Source of the DNA: Candidatus Saganbacteria bacterium
GTDB lineage: Bacteria; Margulisbacteria; WOR-1; O2-12-FULL-45-9
Assembly (NCBI GenBank): GCA_016219705.1
Contig: JACRKQ010000016.1
Coordinates: 1 to 36,555, forward strand
DNA length: 36,555 bases
Reading direction: 5' to 3'
Shown here: positions 4,754-30,421 of the stretch, piece after piece
How the letters are laid out: every line of letters begins with the position of its first letter
Position numbering within the stretch: position 1 is the stretch's first letter
Translations under genes and position numbers: made by a program
Notes under the pieces: model-generated
The model's database searches: none
What the model was told of the DNA's origin: nothing
What the model saw: the letters and a program-made list of their open reading frames with translations, nothing else

Positions 4754-5908
4754 ATGGTCTCATTATCTGAATTTAAAAGAGAGCTGAAAATAGATCTCGA
4801 AGGCAATAATGCCGCTTTTTTGTGGGGGCCGCGTAAAGTTGGTAAGACCACTCTGCTCCATCAAAAATTCCCCGATGCTAAGTATTATGATCTCCTTAAT
4901 ACGGAGTTAAAAACACAATTAACTTTAAATCCCGCGATATTACGGGAAGAAGCGCTGGCGGAAAGGCCGAAACTGGTCATAGTAGATGAAGTCCAAAAAG
5001 TTCCCACACTACTTGATGAAATACATTGGTGTCTGGAAAACACGAAAACGAAATTTATCATGTGCGGCTCCAGTGCCCGGAAATTAAGACATGGCGTGGC
5101 CAATCTTTTGGGAGGACGGGCTTGGCGATTTGAATTATTTCCCTTAACAACCAAGGAAATCGGCACAACTGACCTTCTTAAAATATTCAATCACGGGCTG
5201 ATCCCAAAACACTTTAGCGAGAGCTCTCCTGATCGCAGTCTCAAAAGCTATGTTTATGATTATATCGAACAGGAAATCCGCGCCGAAGCTTTGGTGCGGA
5301 ATATTCCTTCTTTTGCGCGGTTTCTGGAAGCAGTTTCTTTAACTCATGGTCAGCTTATTAATTATGCTAACATTGCCCGAGATTGCGGGGTTTCGCCAAA
5401 AACTGCGCGGGAATATTTTCAAATCTTGCAAGATACTTTGTTGGGCCACGAGCTCCAACCCTGGAGAAAAAGCAAGAATCGACGTCTAATCGAAACGGCA
5501 AAATTTTATCTCTTTGACATGGGAGTGGTTCGGACTCTGGCTGGGTTACCTAAAGTCCAGGCTCGCACCGAAGAATTCGGAAGGTATTTTGAGCATTTTT
5601 TAATTGAAGAAATTAGAGCCTTCCTGTCTTATCGCGAGAAAAATTTGGCGCTTTCTTATTGGCGAACCAGCACCGGGATGGAAGTTGATTTGATTATAGG
5701 TAATTTGGACGTAGTGATTGAATTTAAAGCGACAACAAGGGTAGATAATCGCGATTTTAAGGGGCTCTTGGCATTAAAAGAAGACCAAAAAATTGGCAGG
5801 GCGATTGTTGTCACTTTGGACACAAGGCCCCGTCTTATGGAAACGGGGATAGAGATTTTACCCTGGCAGGTCTTTTGCGAAAGACTTTGGAATGGGAAAA
5901 TAATTTAA
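4754..5908 (+). CDS. AAA (AAA_14) ATPase with C-terminal DUF4143, PD-(D/E)XK-like domain
   Basis: Walker A GPRKVGKTTLL, Walker B LVIVDEVQKV, C-terminal YWRTSTGMEVDLIIG...VVIEFKAT (D...ExK). Confidence 0.88.
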   Translation: MVSLSEFKRELKIDLEGNNAAFLWGPRKVGKTTLLHQKFPDAKYYDLLNTELKTQLTLNPAILREEALAERPKLVIVDEVQKVPTLLDEIHWCLENTKTKFIMCGSSARKLRHGVANLLGGRAWRFELFPLTTKEIGTTDLLKIFNHGLIPKHFSESSPDRSLKSYVYDYIEQEIRAEALVRNIPSFARFLEAVSLTHGQLINYANIARDCGVSPKTAREYFQILQDTLLGHELQPWRKSKNRRLIETAKFYLFDMGVVRTLAGLPKVQARTEEFGRYFEHFLIEEIRAFLSYREKNLALSYWRTSTGMEVDLIIGNLDVVIEFKATTRVDNRDFKGLLALKEDQKIGRAIVVTLDTRPRLMETGIEILPWQVFCERLWNGKII

Positions 5909-5918
5909 ATTATTTTCC
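5893..5918. repeat. 26 bp perfect palindrome at the tail-to-tail junction of two ATPase paralogues
   Basis: GGGAAAATAATTTAAATTATTTTCCC; both genes end ...GKII* and their stop codons overlap within TTAA. Confidence 0.85.
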
Positions 5919-7047
5919 CCGACCACAATTTTTCCAAAAAGTCTTCCCAGGGAAGAATATGCAGTTTATCAACGAGTCTCGGTCTTGGGTCCAAAGAAAC
6001 GACGATAGAATACTTGGTTTTATATTCTTCATCAAACGCCCGTAAGCCGTGACAGTGTTGGGGGCCGACGTTTTTTGAAGCCTTAACTTCAATTGCTGCT
6101 TCATGGTCTCCCAAAATAAAATCTACTTCAAGCTGTGAAGCCGTGCGCCAGTAAGCCAGGTCAAAATTTTTACCAGAGTAATGGCTGTAGGCCAGCAATT
6201 CTTGGAAGATAAATTGTTCGAACGCCCGCCCAAAATTCTCACTATTATATTCGATTGTTCCTCTTTTGAGCAGATAATTGGCAATGCCGATGTCAGAAAA
6301 ATAAAAACGAGGAGCATGAATTACCCGTCTTTTTGGCCTTTTTTGAAATGCCGGCAGATAATATCCGATTAATGTGTCTATTAGAATTTGAAAATATTCT
6401 TTGACTGTTACCGCATTGACATAGCATTCCCGGGCTACATTTTGATAATTTATTGTTTGGCCGTTGCTGAAAGCGGCTGCATTCAAAAACCTGGCGAAGG
6501 CAGGGATGTTTCTCGTGATGGCTTCGGCGGCAATTTCCTCCTTTAAGTAATCCCCGATATAGGCCTGAAGCAAAGGCTGCGGGTTGGCGGCTAAGTAATG
6601 CCGCGGCAATAATCCGTTGGTTAAAGCGCGCAAGAGATTAAATTTAGGAATTTCTTTATAAACCAGAGGGTGCAGCTCATAGCGCAAAGCCCTTCCTCCT
6701 AACAGGTTTCCTGCTCCTCTTTTTAGTTTTCTGGCGCTTGATCCGCAAAGAATAAATTGAATTTCCCGATTTACTATTAACCATTGTATTTCATCTAATA
6801 AAGCCGGAATTTTTTGCACCTCATCAATAATAACCGGATTTTTTAAGGAGTGTTTTTGCAGTAATTCATCGTGGAACAGTCCGGGATTGGCGGACAGCCG
6901 GACATATTCTTTGGTCAACAGTAAATCATAACGCAGGGAGTCGGGGAAAAGCTTGTCCAGCAGGGTGCTTTTCCCTGTTTGTCTTGGCCCCCAGAGAAAA
7001 CACGACTCTTTGCCTAAATTGAGTAATTTTTGCTCTCTTTTAAACAT
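5905..7047 (-). CDS. AAA (AAA_14) ATPase with C-terminal DUF4143 domain; paralogue of the 4754-5908 gene
   Basis: Walker A GPRQTGKSTLL, Walker B PVIIDEVQKI, C-terminal YWRTASQLEVDFILGDHEAAIEVKAS. Confidence 0.88.
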   Translation of the reverse strand: MFKREQKLLNLGKESCFLWGPRQTGKSTLLDKLFPDSLRYDLLLTKEYVRLSANPGLFHDELLQKHSLKNPVIIDEVQKIPALLDEIQWLIVNREIQFILCGSSARKLKRGAGNLLGGRALRYELHPLVYKEIPKFNLLRALTNGLLPRHYLAANPQPLLQAYIGDYLKEEIAAEAITRNIPAFARFLNAAAFSNGQTINYQNVARECYVNAVTVKEYFQILIDTLIGYYLPAFQKRPKRRVIHAPRFYFSDIGIANYLLKRGTIEYNSENFGRAFEQFIFQELLAYSHYSGKNFDLAYWRTASQLEVDFILGDHEAAIEVKASKNVGPQHCHGLRAFDEEYKTKYSIVVSLDPRPRLVDKLHILPWEDFLEKLWSGKII

Positions 7048-18591: not shown

Positions 18592-20958
18592 CTACCCCAT
18601 AACCACTTCAACATGATGTTCCTGCCCGCCTTGATCTGCGGAAATTAAGTTGCCGGCTAATTTTTTACCATCAACCGTAAGTGATTTAATCCCCTTGGAA
18701 ACATTTTCCGGATTGCGTACAGTTATGTAATACGTTGAACCGCGGAAAATTCTCTTGACCTGAAAACCCTTCCAGGCCTTGGGAATGCAGGGATCGACTA
18801 ACAAACCGGCATAATCAGGGCGAATGCCGAGTATCCACTGTGTTGCGGCGACAAAATTCCAGCTGGCGGATCCGGTTAGCCACGAGTTTTTTCCTTCACC
18901 AAAAGCCTGGTGCGCCCGGCCGGCGATCATCTGGCAATAGACATAAGGTTCTGTCTTGTGAGTCTCGCTAATTTCGTTGCGGGCGGCCGGTTGGATCGCC
19001 TTATAATATTGGTAAGCAATATCGCCGCGGCCAATAATACATTCAGCGATCATCGCCCAGGGATTGGGATGGCAGAAAATCGCGCCATTCTCTTTAAGCC
19101 CCGGAGGGTAGACGCCGATTGAGCCGAGGCGATAATCGAATTTTGAATAGGGTGGATCGAGAATCAAGACTCCGTGTTCTGTCGCTAATTTTTTATTAAC
19201 CGCATCGAGACATTTTTTCGCTTTTTCCTTATCTGCGACGCCGGCCAGCAGCGCCCAGGCTTGCGGTTCCAGATAAATTTTTCCTTCCAGGCACTCTTTT
19301 GATCCGACCGGAGTTTCCTCGTCGGTAAAAGCGCGGATGTACCAATTGCCGTCCCAGGCGGTTTCATTGATTTTTTGTGTCATCTCTTCCGCCAACTTAA
19401 TATATTTCTTTACCGCAATCGGTTTTTTGGCGAGTTCAGAGAGTTTGAGCATGTCTTTGGCGGCGGCGACGAACATTTGGGCGACCATGACCGATTCAGC
19501 CTTCCCTTTGCCCTGGTCAAGATTTAAACAATCATTCCAGTCGGCGAAAAAAATTAAGGGGAGACCATGAGGGCCCAAATTCTTAGCCGAAAATTTCATG
19601 GCTTTTTCGAGATGATCAAATAAACTGACGGTTTCGCCCCCCGCGAAAGAGATCTTCTCCTGCAGAAAATCAACGTCGCCGGTTTCTTTGATATAGCTAG
19701 CGACAGAATAGATCAACCAGAGATGATCATCGCCATATTTATTATCGGATGGGTTGGCCTTTTTCGTTAGTGGTGAATATTGGTGATAAGCGTTGCCCTC
19801 GGGCAACTGGGTAGCGGTTAAATCTTTGATCCTCGACTTAACTTTTTCCGGGATTAAATGGACGAAGCCAAGAGTGTCCTGGTTGGAATCGCGGAAGCCC
19901 ATGCCGCGGCCAATACCGGATTCATAATATGAGGCGGAGCGAGACCAGTTAAAGGTCGTTAAACACTGGTATTGGTTCCAGACATTGATCATCAAATCAA
20001 GTTCGGGGTCTTCTGATTGGACGGAGAATTTATTGAGATTGTCTTCCCAATAAGCGGCCAGTTTTTTTAATTCCTGCTCAATAACTTTGGGATCTTCAAA
20101 TTTTTTGACTTTGGCCGGAGGCTCTTTAATATTTTCAGTAAAACCGAGGACAAAAGTAAAAGTTTTTATTTCTCCCGGTTTAATTTTAAAATTAAACATT
20201 TGAGCGCCGACGGGAGACCAGCCGCAAGCGATAGAATTGCGCATCTTCCCTTCAATTACCGCTCGCGGGACCGACCAATCGCCGTAGTTACCCATAAAAT
20301 CACTGCGCTGGGTGTCAAATCCGGCTGCCCGGGCATTAGCGCAGCTGAAGTAGCCGATGATATCCTGGGTGACGCGATAGCGGCTGATATGGTAAATAAT
20401 ATTATCTTTAACTTCGGCTTGTCCGATGTTTAAGTTGTACTGATAATCGGTCATATCGTTCAAGGCATCCCAGAGACAAAATTCAACAAAAGAAAAGAGA
20501 GAGAGATCTCGAGCGTTGGCGCCGCCTTTTTTAGGTTCACATTTGACTTCTAACTGCCAGATCTCCAGATTTTCACCCAGGGGGACAAAGTAAGTGGTTT
20601 TGGTTGAAATGCCCGCGTATTGGGCGGTGATGACCGAATAGCCCAAACCATGCCGGCATTCATATTTATAATCATTGAGATTTTTTAGGACCGGCTGCCA
20701 CGATGTCGACCAGTAACTGCCGCTGGTATTATCACGCAGGTAGAGATAGCGTCCCCCGCGGTCCATGGGGACATTATTATAGCGATAACGGGTGATGCGG
20801 CGCTCTTTGGGGTCTTTGTAGAAACTGTAACCGCCAGCAGTATTGCTAAATAAGGCGCAATATTCTTCACTTCCTAAATAGTTGATCCAGGGGAGGGGAG
20901 TGTCGGGGCGGGTGATCACATATTCTTTGCGTTCTTTATCAAAATAACCATACTTCAT
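18592..20958 (-). CDS. GH94-family glycoside phosphorylase (cellobiose/chitobiose phosphorylase-like)
   Basis: GRGMGFRDSNQDTLGF, FFADWNDCLNLD, TEPYVYCQMIAG, GSASWNFVAATQWILGIRPDYAGLLVDPCIPKAWKGFQVKRIFRG. Confidence 0.9.
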   Translation of the reverse strand: MKYGYFDKERKEYVITRPDTPLPWINYLGSEEYCALFSNTAGGYSFYKDPKERRITRYRYNNVPMDRGGRYLYLRDNTSGSYWSTSWQPVLKNLNDYKYECRHGLGYSVITAQYAGISTKTTYFVPLGENLEIWQLEVKCEPKKGGANARDLSLFSFVEFCLWDALNDMTDYQYNLNIGQAEVKDNIIYHISRYRVTQDIIGYFSCANARAAGFDTQRSDFMGNYGDWSVPRAVIEGKMRNSIACGWSPVGAQMFNFKIKPGEIKTFTFVLGFTENIKEPPAKVKKFEDPKVIEQELKKLAAYWEDNLNKFSVQSEDPELDLMINVWNQYQCLTTFNWSRSASYYESGIGRGMGFRDSNQDTLGFVHLIPEKVKSRIKDLTATQLPEGNAYHQYSPLTKKANPSDNKYGDDHLWLIYSVASYIKETGDVDFLQEKISFAGGETVSLFDHLEKAMKFSAKNLGPHGLPLIFFADWNDCLNLDQGKGKAESVMVAQMFVAAAKDMLKLSELAKKPIAVKKYIKLAEEMTQKINETAWDGNWYIRAFTDEETPVGSKECLEGKIYLEPQAWALLAGVADKEKAKKCLDAVNKKLATEHGVLILDPPYSKFDYRLGSIGVYPPGLKENGAIFCHPNPWAMIAECIIGRGDIAYQYYKAIQPAARNEISETHKTEPYVYCQMIAGRAHQAFGEGKNSWLTGSASWNFVAATQWILGIRPDYAGLLVDPCIPKAWKGFQVKRIFRGSTYYITVRNPENVSKGIKSLTVDGKKLAGNLISADQGGQEHHVEVVMG

Positions 20959-22347: not shown

Positions 22348-24120
22348 AAACTTCTTTGCAAACGCCAGCCACTTCTTCTTACCGTTTTTGATTTCGAGGA
22401 ATAGACTGAAATTAGCGTATACAACTTGGCCTTTGCCGATTTTTTTTGTTAGCGTGAATTCTTTTTTTGGCTTGCCGGCAATTCCATCGATAAAACCGCA
22501 TTTTGCCGATTCGGTATATTCATATTTAATTCCCAGCAGATCTTCTATCAGCGCGTTAGGGTAGAGATGTCCGTTTTCATCCCGGACGCCAAAGCGGGCC
22601 TCGGTTATCAATGTCCCGCCATTTTTAATCCACTGTTTTAAATTATTATACTGTTTGCGAGAGAGGAGATAAGGATTGGGTAATAATATTGTCCTGCAGG
22701 GAAGATGATTATTATCTAAATCTTGTTCAAAGATAAAGTCGACCGGTTTACCTTTTTTATAGGCGGCCAGGTGGGCGCCCGGGAGCGACATCAAAGTATG
22801 CATTAAGCCGATTTCCACCCGGACCGGTTCCCATTGTCCGACGATGCCGCGCGGAGGTCCCTGTTCCTGGTAGGTCTGTATCTCGCTGGAACGTAAATAA
22901 GCAATAGCAATTTTAGAATTTTGTGTTTTGGATTTGTTTCGGGTTTCGGATTTAGATTTTAGAATTTTTGCCGCGAGCTGTTTTATAACTTCTAATCTCT
23001 TCGTCGAACTTCCGTCAGATTTGAGGATTCCAAAACCTTGTGTTTCCGCCCCGAACATTGGCGGTTTCCAATTGTGATATAACAAAGCCTGACAACCATG
23101 TTCAAAAGCCAGCTCTGTCCAATTTTTAATCTCCGGGCCTTTGACATACTCCGGGGCGCCCCAGCGGACATTTTGGCCGCCTTGAAGCTCGGTAACATGA
23201 AATTCGGCGCCGCCAGCGCGGCAGAAACTGCGCCACAAGTCATAAGAAAAAGCCAAGTCAGTTTGGGTCATCCGGCCGCCTTTGGGATAGACATCCATGC
23301 CGTAAAAATCCAGCCCGGCCGACATCAAACTATGGTCAGGGACGCGAGTGCAGATGCCGATAAAGCCGTTCGTTCCAATTTTATGATTAGGATCAATCTC
23401 TCTGACGATCTTGGCCAGATGACTGATCCAATTTTTTAAACTAGCGGTTTTAAAACGGAACCAATCCAGAAAAATATGAGGGGAAACCGCTTCCCAAATG
23501 CCCGCCTTTGGCGTCATGATATCCTCAAAACGGCTAAACGTCGTCGTCCAGAAACTTGTTCCCCACACCCGGTTTAATTTTTCGAGCGAGCCGTATTTTT
23601 TTCTCGCCCAGAGGATAAAAGCCTGGCGTGAATGTTCGCAATGACAAAAATCATTGCTCGTTGTATGGTCCAGCGGTGGATAAACCGGTTCATTGTCGAG
23701 CTGCCAGAGCAACAGAGCAGGATGATCTTTGTAGCGGTCGACCAGTTTTTTGGCTAAACGATCAGCTAAATGGCGATAGTGAGGATTATCTTTGCAGATA
23801 TTAGGGCGCGGGCCGTATTCAGGATAAAGCGTGCCGTCTTGAGCCACGGGACGGCTGTCTGGATAGAGACGATAAAACCAGGTTGGGACTTGGGAAGTTG
23901 GGATACCGAGCAAAACTTTTAATCCGTGTTTGGCGCAGAGGCTCATCGCCTGATCGAGCTCGGCAAAAGAGAAACGGCCTGGTTCCGGCTCCATCCAGTC
24001 CCAAGCCATTTCGCCAAAGCGGACGATATTTAGGCCCGCAGCCTTAATCTCCTTAAAGGTTTGGTCCCAAGTCTCTTTGGGCCATTGATCGGGATAATAT
24101 GTTACGCCAAATGGCAGCAT
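22339..24120 (-). CDS. GH42 beta-galactosidase
   Basis: MLPFGVTYYPDQWPKETWDQTFKEIKAAGLNIVRFGEMAWDWMEPEPGRFSFAELD, LLLWQLDNEPVYP, FHVTELQGG. Confidence 0.93.
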   Translation of the reverse strand: MLPFGVTYYPDQWPKETWDQTFKEIKAAGLNIVRFGEMAWDWMEPEPGRFSFAELDQAMSLCAKHGLKVLLGIPTSQVPTWFYRLYPDSRPVAQDGTLYPEYGPRPNICKDNPHYRHLADRLAKKLVDRYKDHPALLLWQLDNEPVYPPLDHTTSNDFCHCEHSRQAFILWARKKYGSLEKLNRVWGTSFWTTTFSRFEDIMTPKAGIWEAVSPHIFLDWFRFKTASLKNWISHLAKIVREIDPNHKIGTNGFIGICTRVPDHSLMSAGLDFYGMDVYPKGGRMTQTDLAFSYDLWRSFCRAGGAEFHVTELQGGQNVRWGAPEYVKGPEIKNWTELAFEHGCQALLYHNWKPPMFGAETQGFGILKSDGSSTKRLEVIKQLAAKILKSKSETRNKSKTQNSKIAIAYLRSSEIQTYQEQGPPRGIVGQWEPVRVEIGLMHTLMSLPGAHLAAYKKGKPVDFIFEQDLDNNHLPCRTILLPNPYLLSRKQYNNLKQWIKNGGTLITEARFGVRDENGHLYPNALIEDLLGIKYEYTESAKCGFIDGIAGKPKKEFTLTKKIGKGQVVYANFSLFLEIKNGKKKWLAFAKKFLF

Positions 24121-27100
24121 ATTTCTTTAACCTTCCGTTCACGGATTTGTAGAGCGATCGGTGCGGGAATAAAAGGCTGGTTAATCTCCACTGTTTTACC
24201 GTCAATAATTAACTTATAAGTGACTGGCGCCAAGCCTTCGTAAGTATTTTTTTTCTGCGGATTGAGGTAGGTCACATCAATGTTGCCCAAAAGCTTGAAA
24301 CTAAATTGGCCGTTTTTAAACAGCCATTTAGGCAGGATGGGCGCTAGTTTAAAACAGAGCTGACCGCTGTGGTCGGTATAAAAGATATTTTTTCCTGTTG
24401 TCATCAGCAACCAGATATCGATAAACTCTGCGGTGGCGCCGGAGAGCCGGGCGACAAAACCCCGCCCATGGTTTTGCCTGTTAGAATTACAGCTGCTGAC
24501 GATAAAAGAAGAATTTTCCAGGATGCTGCGCCGGTAAGTCGCCGGTTTCAAGAAAGGGACCAGGACATTTTTCAAGTCGCCAAAAAACTCTTCATAACAG
24601 CCGGTCTTCAGCAGTTCCAGCAGATATTTATATTCCATATGGAGCCAGACCGATTCATTTTCCAGCCAGCCGGGAGCAAAAACCTTGGCCCGGCCGATTT
24701 CTATCGGCGCGTCAGGCAAAGGCGCGTTGACCTTATACATTTTTAATTTTCTGTCGTAAAGCGGGCTTTGTTTGACTAATTTTGGGATTTGCTTATCATG
24801 ATCAACTCGCAGCGCGTGAACAAACCCCTCTAAAAACAGGGGGAGGGGCTTTTGCTCAAAGCGTTTGGCTTTGATCCCGTGACTATTGGCGTGCTCATAT
24901 TCCACCAGTTCATTAATAAAATAAGTGTAATAATTACCGTAGCGCTCCCGACATTGCCGGACCGCTTCAGTGCATTTTTGCTGCAGCTGCTGAATAAACG
25001 AACGCAAAGTGGCGTTGTCTATTATCTTTTCCTCGCCGGTAATACCCAGACGGGTGGCCCGACGGAAATCTTCTTTCAAGCGGCAGCTGTCATCCCAATA
25101 ACGGAAATTATTTTGCCGGTTGTTCATTAATACGGCGACCAGTTTTTCCAGGAAGGCGGCGACTTCAATTGGCAGCGTGACGGTGATCGACTCATCAATC
25201 TGGTCGAGGAGATAATTACAGAGACGTTTTATCTCCAATGTCTCTGATAATGAAGAGCCGAGCAACCCGGGCAGGCCGTTTAAGGCGTCATACCAATTCG
25301 GTTTTTCCGCTTCCATTTCAATGCCGATGCCGCAAGGATCAAAAGAAGCCGTTTTATTAACCAAAAGACAAATTATTTTTCCTAACAGGGTGGTTTTATA
25401 AATGGCCCCCTGGCCGTTTTCCGTCCTGACCGCATTTCTCTCCCAACTGCGCCGGCTCAATAACTCGGCTTTCTCCGGATCGAGTTTTACGCTGCCGTAC
25501 TGGCGGACCTTGTCGCCGATGAGCCGATACTTATGTTTGCGCTCGACGACAATATACTCCGAATCATAAAAAGTGAATTCCTTATCGATAAATAACAGAG
25601 CTTTGACCTGCTCCGGGTAGAGGCAGGCAAAACTTTCCAGCAGGTCGGTATTATAGGTAAAATGATCAGTCCAATAGCCTTCACCATGGGCGGCCTCCTC
25701 TTTGCTGACCGACTTTTCCATCAGAGCGGTGGCGAAGTCCAAGGCGGAGGTCTGGTAAGCGCAGCCCGCAAAATCAAGGCGCTTTAAAATGTTGCCCAGG
25801 ACGAAAGGTTTTGTTAGTAAGGGGACGAGATCAGGCGGCGGGTTGACGAAATGCTGTTTGGCCAGGTTCTCCGCGACCGCCGCTGAACGGATAAAAAATT
25901 GACTGCCGAGGACGATCAGGGGGTTAAACCCGTCCAATTGGATCAGGTTAAAAAACCGATAAATATTATCGGCGGCGACCCGGGGATTAAAGAAAATATC
26001 ATTGCGCCGGTTCTGATTAATGTCGCGGTAGTTGCCGTTGCCCTGGGAAAAGTACGACGGCATCAGCTTGAAATCATTATAGTCGCGCTCCATGTCACCG
26101 TGCTTGCGGTAAAATAAATATAACACTTTATGATCGAGGGTGACTGGCAGTCCGCCGCGCATGACATTATCGAGGAAATTCTGCCGACAATACAGGTCAA
26201 AACTCTGGCTGGCGCTCTCTGTTCCCATCATGGCGCTGATATCATCAATTATCCGGTCATTTTCTTTAGCCTTGCGAAGAAAATAATCATGCCGGCGGGC
26301 GCGCGCCTGGAATTTTTTTAACTGGGAAGGATTGTCGGCTTGCCCGATGATAGAACAGATTTTTGCTTCCCCCTGGCCGGCCAGTTTAATTTTTTTATAG
26401 CAAAAAGCGCTGGGAATAAAACCCTCGGTCTGTTGGTTAGTCGGCACTCGAAAATTTTTAACAGCCAAAAAACTAGCGGGACGCTCCCAGCTCTTCTGCT
26501 CGCCAAAAACGATGTTGGGATCAACAATGACATCAACCGGCCGGTCTTGGCCTGATTGGCGGCAAAAGGCCAGGTAAAAGTTTCCCTGGTCCAGGCAATT
26601 GGTTTCGGCGCAGTCGGCCGGGGCCACCTTCAGCTTATAGAAATGGGTCTTAAAATCCTCCACCACGCTCCAGGCGGCGATAGTCTGGCTCATCCGTTTC
26701 AGCAGGTCGTTGCTGAAGCCGTAGGGGATGATCGCGGGGAGGCCGTCAATAATTTCAATGTTTTGCGGACGATTAGCCAAGTTTGTAATGGTGACACTGC
26801 GGGCTAAACCGGGCAAAATCTCATTGGCTAAAGTAAAATAATTAACGGTAATCCTAATTTTAAGCTGTTTGTTCTCTTCAATTAGCGTCAGATTCCCAGG
26901 CTGGATACGCATGGTGTTGGGTTGCGGCGATGTTTCGGCAAAAGGTTCGTAATATTGGCCATTAACTTTGATAAAAGTGCGGAAGCTGTTTAACGCGGCG
27001 TAGCGGTAAGCTTTATTAGCGGATTGGAATTCAATGATAGAATTATCTTTGTCCTGGACGCCGGCGGAGGTAATGCACTGGCCGCGGTTGGCGTAGAAGA

Positions 27101-27224
27101 CCCACATGGGACAGCCGAAGACCCCGGCGATGCCGGGGAAAAAACTGGAAAAGGTCGGCGCCTGATTGTAGTTTTCAATGACAAATGCATTGTCGGGAGT
27201 GAGATAATATTTCACGGAACCCAT
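24102..27224 (-). CDS. Large GH94-like protein (1,2-beta-oligoglucan phosphorylase-like / cellobiose phosphorylase superfamily)
   Basis: FSSFFPGIAGVFGCPMWVFYANRGQCITSAGVQDKDNSIIEFQSANKAYRYAALNSFRTFIKVNGQYYEPF and HGEGYWTDHFTYNTDLLESF; about 1040 aa. The subfamily is inference. Confidence 0.7.
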   Translation of the reverse strand: MGSVKYYLTPDNAFVIENYNQAPTFSSFFPGIAGVFGCPMWVFYANRGQCITSAGVQDKDNSIIEFQSANKAYRYAALNSFRTFIKVNGQYYEPFAETSPQPNTMRIQPGNLTLIEENKQLKIRITVNYFTLANEILPGLARSVTITNLANRPQNIEIIDGLPAIIPYGFSNDLLKRMSQTIAAWSVVEDFKTHFYKLKVAPADCAETNCLDQGNFYLAFCRQSGQDRPVDVIVDPNIVFGEQKSWERPASFLAVKNFRVPTNQQTEGFIPSAFCYKKIKLAGQGEAKICSIIGQADNPSQLKKFQARARRHDYFLRKAKENDRIIDDISAMMGTESASQSFDLYCRQNFLDNVMRGGLPVTLDHKVLYLFYRKHGDMERDYNDFKLMPSYFSQGNGNYRDINQNRRNDIFFNPRVAADNIYRFFNLIQLDGFNPLIVLGSQFFIRSAAVAENLAKQHFVNPPPDLVPLLTKPFVLGNILKRLDFAGCAYQTSALDFATALMEKSVSKEEAAHGEGYWTDHFTYNTDLLESFACLYPEQVKALLFIDKEFTFYDSEYIVVERKHKYRLIGDKVRQYGSVKLDPEKAELLSRRSWERNAVRTENGQGAIYKTTLLGKIICLLVNKTASFDPCGIGIEMEAEKPNWYDALNGLPGLLGSSLSETLEIKRLCNYLLDQIDESITVTLPIEVAAFLEKLVAVLMNNRQNNFRYWDDSCRLKEDFRRATRLGITGEEKIIDNATLRSFIQQLQQKCTEAVRQCRERYGNYYTYFINELVEYEHANSHGIKAKRFEQKPLPLFLEGFVHALRVDHDKQIPKLVKQSPLYDRKLKMYKVNAPLPDAPIEIGRAKVFAPGWLENESVWLHMEYKYLLELLKTGCYEEFFGDLKNVLVPFLKPATYRRSILENSSFIVSSCNSNRQNHGRGFVARLSGATAEFIDIWLLMTTGKNIFYTDHSGQLCFKLAPILPKWLFKNGQFSFKLLGNIDVTYLNPQKKNTYEGLAPVTYKLIIDGKTVEINQPFIPAPIALQIRERKVKEICCHLA

Positions 27225-27236
27225 AGAGATACTATT

Positions 27237-27302
27237 CTACTCGACTGTCACTGATTTCGCAAGGTTCCTGGGTTGGTCGACGTGACAGCCGCGCTTGAAG
27301 GC
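27237..27302 (-). pseudogene. glmS 3'-end remnant (second copy of the last ~21 codons)
   Basis: Minus strand reads AFKRGCHVDQPRNLAKSVTVE*; 56 of 66 nt match 28592-28657. Confidence 0.9.
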
Positions 27303-28504
27303 TAGGCCATTTTAGTTAAAAAATCTCTAACATTGACATGTTTGATCCCATTGTAATGACCGGCCGCGGTCTCGTCCATGGAAACGACAAATTTGGGATA
27401 ATTATCCTGAATGGCCAAAAGGTTGCCAAATTCCCTATCTCTGATTTTTTCATCAGAGATCAAGTAAGCAACCTGGACGTAAATTTTTTCATCCCCTCTT
27501 TCACAGACAAAGTTAATTTCTTTGTTTTTTAGTTGTCCCACGGTCACGTTATAACCGGAGGTTTTTAGATGAAGAAAAACCAGGTTCTCCAGAATTTTGC
27601 TGATATCGGTTTGTTTATATCCGACGATAGAGTGGCGCAATCCCAGGTCCTCGAAATAATATTTTTCTCCGATTTCAAAAATTCTTTTGCCGATAATATC
27701 GGAACGGCAAGTTTTGAAAACCAGGAAAGCCTGCGTTAAATGGGTCAGGTAATTTAGCACCACGTTGGGCGGCATTTTGGTCTTTTGCGACTTCAAGAAA
27801 TCGCTGATTTTTTTTGCAGAGACCAGTGAGCCAACGTTGTCCGCCAGAAAAGCGACCAGCCGCTCTAAAAATTCAGAGTTCCTAATTTTAAAACGACGAA
27901 CTACATCTTTATAGAGAATGGCGTTATAAATGTTCCTTAAATAATCATAAACAACCGCGTCTTCAAGTTCTAAATTTATCAGATAAGGCAAACCGCCATA
28001 TTTTATATAGCTCATAAGAGCAGCAGACGAATTTTTTAGTTTGTGAAATTCAAGAAATTCAGGGTAAGAAAGACCAAAGATTTTTACTTCAATATACCGG
28101 CCGCTCAAATGTGTGGCTAGCTCGCCAGAAAGTAAATTGGCATTGCTACCGGTGCAGTAAAGATCATATTTTCCTCTAGCCTGAAGGTCTCTAAGGGCCT
28201 TTTCAAAACCAGCAATTTCTTGGATTTCATCTATAAATATATAGGCTTTCCCTCTCCCCTTAGTTTTTGCTTTGATATAAGCCAGCAGATCGGTATGAGT
28301 TTTAATAAATTCAAATTCATTCAGTTCTTTATTAATGTAAACGATGGAAACCTCTTTTTTCTTTTTGATAATGTCTATGATCTGGTAAAGCAGGTAGCTT
28401 TTTCCTACCCGGCGCTGACCAATAATAACTTTGATCAGGTTTTTGTCAAAATAAGGACGCAGCTTGTTCAGGTATAAATCACGTTTTTTATATGTTTTAA
28501 TCAT
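27302..28504 (-). CDS. AAA ATPase with DUF4143-like C-terminus and degenerate nuclease motif
   Basis: Walker A GQRRVGKSYLLYQ, Walker B AYIFIDEIQEI; C-terminal KEINFVCERGDEKIYVQVAYL replaces the usual EVD...ExK. Confidence 0.85.
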   Translation of the reverse strand: MIKTYKKRDLYLNKLRPYFDKNLIKVIIGQRRVGKSYLLYQIIDIIKKKKEVSIVYINKELNEFEFIKTHTDLLAYIKAKTKGRGKAYIFIDEIQEIAGFEKALRDLQARGKYDLYCTGSNANLLSGELATHLSGRYIEVKIFGLSYPEFLEFHKLKNSSAALMSYIKYGGLPYLINLELEDAVVYDYLRNIYNAILYKDVVRRFKIRNSEFLERLVAFLADNVGSLVSAKKISDFLKSQKTKMPPNVVLNYLTHLTQAFLVFKTCRSDIIGKRIFEIGEKYYFEDLGLRHSIVGYKQTDISKILENLVFLHLKTSGYNVTVGQLKNKEINFVCERGDEKIYVQVAYLISDEKIRDREFGNLLAIQDNYPKFVVSMDETAAGHYNGIKHVNVRDFLTKMA

Positions 28505-28539
28505 GACTATAAATCCTTAGATATAGTGTAATAGTTATA

Positions 28540-28568
28540 ATTATATGTAAAACTAATTTAGGTGTCAA
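28540..28568 (-). promoter_or_regulatory. Full-consensus sigma70-type promoter TTGACA-N17-TATAAT for the ATPase at 28504
   Basis: Minus strand: TTGACA (28568-28563), TATAAT (28545-28540); palindrome TATAATTATA at 28536-28545 overlaps the -10. Confidence 0.65.
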
Positions 28569-28591
28569 GTCTCGGCTCAAAACTGTAGGTG

Positions 28592-30421
28592 TTACTCCAC
28601 CGTCACTGACTTGGCAAGGTTCCTGGGCTGATCAACATGACAGCCGCGCTTGACGGCGATATAATACGCCAGGAGCTGAAGCGGGATAACCGCCAGAATG
28701 GGGGAGAGGGCTTCAGAGGTTTTGGGGATAAAGATCGCTTCATCAACGCGCTCTTTGATCTCTTCATTGCCGACGCAGGCAACAGCGATCACTATGCCGC
28801 CACGCGCCTTGACCTCTTCAATGTTGCCAAGAATTTTATCATAACGCCGGCCCGCTAAAGCCAGCACTACCACCGGCATATGCTGATCAATCAAAGCGAT
28901 CGGGCCGTGCTTCATCTCGGCGGCCGGGTAACCTTCCGCGTGGATGTAGGAGACTTCCTTAAGCTTCAGCGCCCCTTCCAGGGCGATGGGGAACCCTTTG
29001 CCCCGTCCGAGATAGAGGGCATTGGTCGCTTTGGACAAGCATTCGGCGATTTTTTCCGCCGCCGGCTCACAGTAAAGGGCGTCTTCAACTTTGCCGGGTA
29101 GCTCGATCAGATCATTAATAAACTTGATCGATTCCGTATCGCTGATAAGTCCCCGGCGCTTGCCGAAAAGAATGGCCAGAAGATAGAGGACCGTTAGCTG
29201 GGTGGTGAAAGCTTTGGTTGAGGCGACCCCGATTTCCGGTCCCGCGTTGGTATAAACAACCCCGTGCGACTCGCGGGCGATGGAAGAGCCGACAACGTTG
29301 CAAATGGAGATTACCTTGGCATTCTGCGCCTTAGCCTCCCAAACAGCGCCGAGCGTATCGGCGGTCTCGCCAGACTGGGTAATGGCGATCACCAGGGTAT
29401 TTTTATCGATGATGGGGTGGCGATAACGGAACTCGGCGGCGTATTCGACTTCAGTCGGGATCCGGGCAAATTGTTCAAAAAGATATTCGCCAATCAGCGC
29501 GGCGTGCCAGGAAGTGCCGCAGGCGGTAAAAACAATCCGGTTTACCTGGCGGATCTCTTCGTCAGAAAGATTTAATTCATCGAAGTGGATCCTATGGCTC
29601 TCGGCGGCGATGCGGCCCTCAATGGTTTTCCTGATGGCGCTGGGCTGTTCATGAATCTCCTTTAACATAAAATGGGAGTAACCGCCTTTTTCCGCCGACT
29701 GCGGGTCCCAGGAGATTAATTCTTTCTTTTTAATGACCGGGCTGCCGTCCAGGGTAAAAACTTTGATCTGGTTTTTTGTCAGAATGGCGATCTCGCCGTT
29801 GTCTAATTTGATAATCTCGTCGGTATATTTAAGAATCGCCGGGATATCGGAAGAAATAAAATATTCTTTGTCGCCAAATCCGACAATCAAGGGGCTGCCG
29901 GAACGGGCGACAATGATCTGGTCCGGCGCGTGTTCGGAGATGACCGCTAAAGCATAAGAGCCGCGGACAAATTTGAGCGCCAAAGCGACCGCTTTTAATA
30001 AGTCGCCATGATAATTATCCTCGATTAAATGGGCAAGAACTTCTGTATCGGTTGTTGAGCTGAACTTATGGCCTTTTTCATGCAGTTGGCGGCGCAGTTC
30101 CAAATAATTTTCAATAATGCCGTTATGGACGACGGCGATCTTACCGGTACAGTCTTCATGAGGATGGGAATTGGAGTCAGATGGTTGGCCGTGAGTGGCC
30201 CAGCGGGTATGGCCGATGCCGATCTCGCCGCTAATGGGGCGCTGTTTCAAAAACGTTTCCAGTTCGATGATTTTACCGGCGCGTTTGGAGACAAAAATTT
30301 TATTATTATCGAGAGTGGCGATGCCGGCGGAATCATAGCCCCGGTACTCGAGCTTCTTTAATCCCTCGAGGATAAAGGGGACGGCTTCTTTCTTACCAAT
30401 GTAGCCGAATATACCGCACAT
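28592..30421 (-). CDS. glmS: Glutamine-fructose-6-phosphate aminotransferase (isomerizing)
   Basis: MCGIFGYIGKKEAVPFILEGLKKLEYRGYDSAGIA ... YIAVKRGCHVDQPRNLAKSVTVE*. Confidence 0.98.
   Translation of the reverse strand: MCGIFGYIGKKEAVPFILEGLKKLEYRGYDSAGIATLDNNKIFVSKRAGKIIELETFLKQRPISGEIGIGHTRWATHGQPSDSNSHPHEDCTGKIAVVHNGIIENYLELRRQLHEKGHKFSSTTDTEVLAHLIEDNYHGDLLKAVALALKFVRGSYALAVISEHAPDQIIVARSGSPLIVGFGDKEYFISSDIPAILKYTDEIIKLDNGEIAILTKNQIKVFTLDGSPVIKKKELISWDPQSAEKGGYSHFMLKEIHEQPSAIRKTIEGRIAAESHRIHFDELNLSDEEIRQVNRIVFTACGTSWHAALIGEYLFEQFARIPTEVEYAAEFRYRHPIIDKNTLVIAITQSGETADTLGAVWEAKAQNAKVISICNVVGSSIARESHGVVYTNAGPEIGVASTKAFTTQLTVLYLLAILFGKRRGLISDTESIKFINDLIELPGKVEDALYCEPAAEKIAECLSKATNALYLGRGKGFPIALEGALKLKEVSYIHAEGYPAAEMKHGPIALIDQHMPVVVLALAGRRYDKILGNIEEVKARGGIVIAVACVGNEEIKERVDEAIFIPKTSEALSPILAVIPLQLLAYYIAVKRGCHVDQPRNLAKSVTVE

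Follow-up and report, generated by a model that had tools for sequence, protein, structure and literature searches.

Tn7 depends on TnsABCD and on defined ends, and its insertion downstream of glmS produces a short duplication. Islands with an integrase, for instance e14 in icd and those in tRNA genes, carry a copy that restores the gene end and displace the native end; they use a tyrosine or serine integrase and a fixed attachment core. The case of e14 in icd is mentioned in PMC5431349. In fungal mitochondria, mobile ORFs (mORFs) were described for atp6, atp9, cox2 and nad3 in Glomus, the first having been found in atp6 of Allomyces (PMC3630166). PDC-S01 is an ATPase fused to the PD-(D/E)XK superfamily; it was counted in 29,494 bacterial and 9,986 archaeal copies, was ranked fourth in abundance among the defence-type systems of prokaryotes, and is a candidate defence system with validation pending (PMC12988326). 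The passages of PMC12988326 cited here mention neither a mobile unit, nor gene-end repeats, nor insertion sites of PDC-S01. The insertion pattern reported below was undescribed in the literature searched for DUF4143, COG1373 and PDC-S01, a search with bioRxiv and most subscription journals outside its scope.

Here we analyzed a PDC-S01 gene that lies between two copies of the 3' end of glmS in a contig of Candidatus Saganbacteria. The whole stretch of 36,555 nucleotides is referred to as the window.

The glmS locus and its empty sites

On the minus strand, glmS is followed by 87 bp with a promoter, the ATPase ORF, a copy of the last 22 codons of glmS, and, after a gap of 12 bp, a GH161 phosphorylase gene (Table 1).

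Table 1. Features around the 3' end of glmS (positions of the window)
Feature	Position	Strand	Remarks
glmS, target gene, intact, 609 aa	28592-30421	-	SIS and glutamine amidotransferase domains
Repeat copy 1, functional glmS 3' end	28592-28657	-	repeat search, codon comparison
Left part of module, with promoter	28505-28591	-	87 bp
-35 TTGACA	28563-28568	-	full sigma-70 promoter
-10 TATAAT	28540-28545	-	17-bp spacing to -35
AAA_14-DUF4143 ATPase (PDC-S01), 400 aa	27302-28504	-	PF13173, PF13635
ATPase TAG stop	27302-27304	-	shares a base with the start of the remnant
Repeat copy 2, stranded glmS 3' end (remnant), untranslated	27237-27302	-	
GH161 phosphorylase, right flank of the empty site	24102-27224	-	5e-224 to PDB 9qqk
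GH94 gene, farther along from the remnant	18592-20958		

The repeat search gave a direct repeat of 65 nt between the two glmS tails, 86% identical and 1355 bp apart from start to start. Its alignment score of 85 was higher than those of all 3000 upstream-versus-downstream comparisons across different loci (best 64). In the codon comparison the tails differed at 10 of 66 nucleotides; nine of the differences were silent, and the sole replacement, V to F, was in the second codon of the repeat. These differences, and the presence of a consensus promoter with a single ATPase ORF between the copies, had been reported in a sequence-only reading of this DNA and were reproduced by our repeat search, codon comparison and Pfam analysis. 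That reading had also placed the ATPase stop codon against the remnant, which was borne out: because the TAG and the remnant share one base, the first of the remnant, part of this stop codon was probably contributed by the glmS target. The GC content of the ATPase gene was 37.7%, compared with 51.8% for glmS.

In 13 relatives, all from the same family and order, the phosphorylase gene comes after glmS with no ATPase in between, and most of these relatives keep the same neighbours, a solute-binding protein upstream and GH42 and GH94 downstream. The ATPase was absent from this site in every relative compared. The ATPase gene is therefore an insertion, as had been proposed, and we regard an insertion with duplication of the gene end at glmS as practically certain. 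The gene after the remnant had been taken for GH94-like; its position was right, its identity was not, as it is the GH161 phosphorylase. One of the 13 relatives, G004, has a phosphotransferase-like ORF between glmS and the phosphorylase (L038, 8928-9992, plus strand), which is convergent with glmS and has no copy of the glmS tail.

In principle, a second glmS that was later deleted, or a local tandem duplication, could have left its end as the remnant, with the ATPase there by chance. Nothing beyond the repeat itself was found to favour this. The relatives have a single full-length glmS orthologue there, directly before the phosphorylase, and no second full-length glmS was found at the place of the remnant among the relatives searched. 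As empty sites were also common, neither of the outcomes that would have spoken against the sequence-only reading was observed. This synteny rules out a deleted paralogue, and the silent bias of the differences rules out a recent local duplication. The pattern also recurs with many other genes, so that we consider the whole explanation highly improbable.

If one tail had decayed without selection, about 61% of the differences would be expected to change the protein; 9:1 in favour of silent changes was observed (P=0.0014). This bias towards silent changes rules out a local duplication followed by decay of one copy, so the two tails derive from two separate lineages, in agreement with the sequence-only reading. 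The glmS tails of different genera in the family differ at 10-23 nt (mean 16). Because the pair in the window differs at only 10 of 66, the source of one tail was likely a relative closer than any genus sampled. The 12-bp spacing between the remnant and the phosphorylase is of the kind seen after glmS itself in the relatives, which places the remnant where the native glmS end is expected. The remnant is probably the native end, and copy 1, the functional end, was probably brought in with the module, a direction that we infer.

Repeats around homologous ATPases

The DNA before and after each ATPase ORF was compared for 80 homologues of 53-69% identity from many phyla. A direct repeat was called at an upstream-downstream alignment score of at least 40, with other ORFs of the same loci as controls. 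Long direct repeats flanked 17 of 95 homologous ATPases versus 4 of 233 other ORFs, and two of these four positive controls were ATPases of a similar kind, one DUF4143-type (L116) and one a related AAA protein (L087). Among the DUF4143 genes of the window's phylum, 18 of 103 were between long repeats, compared with 0 of 21 controls. The two surveys overlap in the window gene and a few phylum genes, and are largely, not fully, independent. Both yielded other DUF4143 genes between duplicated gene ends, which the earlier reading had suggested looking for. The DUF4143 ATPase family very probably moves as single-gene units with gene-end repeats. The AAA ATPase at L087 (3274-4923, minus strand) is of another family (AAA_22 or ATPase_2-like) and has a direct repeat with a score of 83; judging from this locus, the phenomenon may extend to other ATPase families.

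Across the family the repeats were 24-234 bp long and comprised gene 3' ends (glmS, etfA and others), gene 5' ends (L064, L069, L110), tRNA genes and intergenic DNA. The repeat of L125 is a whole tRNA-Gln, and that of L084 is the 3' half of a tRNA-Arg, in which the tRNA part differs at 1 of about 35 nt and the flank is strongly diverged. The repeat of L274 reads like the conserved end of RNase P RNA. One copy (L265, G000:C8) lies between 109-bp repeats. In Bacteroides luti, the ATPase genes of L126, L197, L202 and L207 were found within a dispersed intergenic repeat of about 240-480 bp, and these four loci were excluded from later analysis as members of a dispersed repeat family.

Silent changes were in excess over 25 pooled coding repeats (P=2e-6); at L311, for example, 6 were silent and 1 was a replacement. 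In several cases, both ends have diverged under purifying selection. The 3' end of etfA was hit twice, in G017 and G004, by genes of different DUF4143 subfamilies in opposite orientation. In G017, also a member of Saganbacteria, the etfA tails (L086) showed 12 silent and 3 replacement differences (P=0.0022), and the stranded copy agrees with the orthologue consensus. In G004 the stranded end has diverged from the functional end; over the 21 nt compared, it is like that of most same-family relatives, and the functional end is like those of other lineages. These comparisons support a foreign functional end and a native stranded end of etfA in both genomes. The window itself contains a second AAA_14-DUF4143 gene of another subfamily (5905-7047, minus strand), with the canonical EVDF...EVK motif and no flanking repeat at that place; a close relative of it is the gene in the etfA 3' end of G004, with the stranded etfA tail.

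Such repeats could also arise as a long target-site duplication, in which a recombinase, either the ATPase or a helper in trans, would insert the gene at staggered breaks separated by tens to hundreds of bases, and fill-in would give repeats that diverge later. The repeats of L129 and L076, which are identical across 234 bp and 61 bp, are consistent with this route, as are the widely varying repeat length and the noncoding and tRNA targets. At L110 of Desulfobacter latus, the two repeats are more closely related to each other than either is to the single copy at a paralogous empty site; this favours target duplication over a foreign end, and the founding event there looks like a plain target duplication. 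Target duplication alone, however, fails to explain the mostly silent differences at glmS (9:1), etfA (12:3) and L311 (6:1), and we judge it unlikely. Both outcomes, foreign ends and sister repeats, would be accounted for if a gene end is duplicated or captured when a site is founded and is then carried along as the module spreads between relatives.

The distribution of the genes was very patchy: the 1.47-Mb genome G000 has 28 DUF4143 genes, and several same-family relatives have none. Copies within one genome were mostly just 35-55% identical to each other, and so have arrived separately. Modules of Desulfobacter that are 87-89% identical at the DNA level sit at different sites. In a plasmid collection, PDC-S01-like genes were found on 230 plasmids, 173 of them from Acinetobacter, and in one of the regions examined such a gene lay near a gene annotated as BrxA family. 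The plasmid loci examined, from Acinetobacter, Moraxella and a Bacteroides isolate, gave a single weak repeat (score 42, at L179) and no other above the threshold.

The probable mobile unit, its protein and its proposed movement

Of 34 downstream repeats, 30 start at -8 to +45 bp from the ATPase stop codon, and six start no later than the last base of that codon. Similarity between the Desulfobacter modules extends from about 77 bp before the start codon to the stop codon. Because of these borders, we take the mobile unit to be the promoter and the ORF, with no repeats at its termini. Conservation in the protein alignment ends at a DFL motif, after which a few residues are ragged; no conserved end motif was seen by eye at the module ends, and synonymous conservation rose only weakly at both ends of the ORF. 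Inverted repeats between 26500 and 29500 of the window amounted to two weak pairs, neither located at both module ends. An insertion sequence or transposon was rejected, as there are no terminal inverted repeats and the repeats of 24-234 bp are not a fixed short duplication.

Upstream of the ATPase genes, a palindrome with a half-length of at least 8 was present in 43% of the regions, compared with 6% of shuffles. A palindrome of the type TTTTAAGTATACTTAAAA overlaps the promoter, for example in L075-L106, and that of Bacteroidales is different: CAATTATAATTG. Such palindromes suggest a putative autoregulatory operator, bound perhaps by the winged-helix-like region of the module's own protein.

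The ATPase ORF matched PF13173 (5.4e-30) and PF13635 (2.9e-12), and the PADLOC model PDLC04787 for PDC-S01 matched it over residues 1-398 (3.9e-147), a full-length family match. AAA_14, DUF4143 and ATPase_2 were the only Pfam domains; LAGLIDADG, GIY-YIG, HNH and His-Cys homing endonuclease domains were not found by Pfam, and the module, with its single ORF, has no integrase or transposase. The structure model (pLDDT 89), whose best PDB matches were SSO1545 and Orc1/Cdc6, shows a predicted AAA+ domain, a helical winged-helix-like middle part and a C-terminal restriction-endonuclease-like domain. Position 331, the candidate catalytic Asp331, is Asp in 43 of 44 aligned proteins but Asn in the window protein. 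Gln344 is invariant, and the Lys position of the motif is Ala, Thr, Cys, Val or Ser across the branch of the window protein. The canonical PD-(D/E)XK motif was matched by 65 of 107 DUF4143 proteins of the phylum set. The window copy may be a disabled module, or its domain may bind DNA instead of cutting it.

For the movement itself, we infer a break, a repair route and a role of the protein as follows. The module, about 87 bp of promoter DNA and one ATPase ORF without transposase or integrase, would meet an empty allele that breaks where the repeat has its left border, or close to it. Repair would then copy the donor's gene end together with the ATPase gene, so that the host gene stays functional. 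Finally, rejoining to the broken native end would leave that end stranded as an untranslated remnant. The AAA+, winged-helix-like and PD-(D/E)XK-like protein would be the likely DNA binder or breaker, and new sites would presumably be founded by a rarer event.

Homing-like spread of a self-contained mobile gene between related genomes at gene ends is the reading that we mildly favour, based on the empty sites, the foreign GC content, the flanking repeats, the silent bias, the recurrent use of etfA and the border near the stop codon, and also on the Desulfobacter modules at different sites, the separate arrivals and the direction seen at etfA of G004 (21 nt). Counting against it, repeats were detectable in only about 18% of the copies, the intact Asp...(Asp/Glu)-x-Lys motif is absent from the window protein, and the same-target search found no targets common to distant lineages other than etfA and orthologous loci, a pattern that differs from strict homing to one site. 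The further step, that the ATPase-nuclease is the only recombination protein and that PDC-S01 genes are self-mobilising single-gene elements homing into and recapping gene ends, is put forward tentatively and with some doubt.

A protein without any role in movement would also fit the loss of the candidate catalytic residues in the window protein. A useful gene, for instance for defence, could be carried passively by ordinary homologous recombination or transformation, with the homologous gene end of the donor recombining on one side and an illegitimate join on the other, leaving the native end behind. Ragged ends without motifs, foreign gene ends from related lineages and a module without recombinase would all be expected from such transfer. 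Random carriage, however, would bring longer flanks and hit other genes equally, whereas in 30 of 34 cases the border was no more than a few dozen bases from the stop codon, and repeats were in strong excess over other ORFs of the same loci. We consider passive transfer quite unlikely, and return to homing-like spread for its consequences.

It appears that a gene presumed to act against phages, and a very common one, is itself a mobile element. If the gene moves itself, its presence beside defence genes may reflect mobility and not defence, and inference from "guilt by embedding" would need re-examination. Since each remnant dates an insertion and may record its donor, the duplicated gene ends allow the idea to be tested across whole genomes.

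Comparison with described systems

PDC-S01 (COG1373) is the same protein family, and the gene is filed under that name, which the catalogue lists as an abundant defence candidate in the passages cited (PMC12988326). The integrase islands differ from the ATPase module, which encodes no integrase. Tn7 shares the nearness to the glmS 3' end, and the sequence-only reading had linked the site to attTn7 and TnsD. This link was abandoned: the cut is about 66 nt inside the glmS coding sequence, the repeat is 65 nt, the single ORF is accompanied by neither Tn7 genes nor Tn7 ends, and the family uses many targets besides glmS.

The closest architecture is that of the mobile ORFs of fungal mitochondria. 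In both, a single mobile ORF has settled close to the 3' end of a gene, an empty site is kept by close relatives, and the differences are mostly synonymous. In the fungi a foreign C-terminal end has taken the place of the native one, which lies stranded downstream, and the same exchange is probable at glmS. The fungal mORFs encode a LAGLIDADG or GIY-YIG endonuclease in mitochondria. The product of the module is instead an AAA+ ATPase that contains a PD-(D/E)XK-like domain; the module has its own promoter and lies in bacterial chromosomes, and the family also uses intergenic sites, tRNA genes and gene 5' ends. Lacking the known domains, the module was kept out of the homing endonuclease genes. 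If the reading is true, an architecture of mobile genes from fungal mitochondria exists in bacteria with an unrelated ATPase-nuclease, and the glmS locus would work like a gene-end-replacing mobile ORF.
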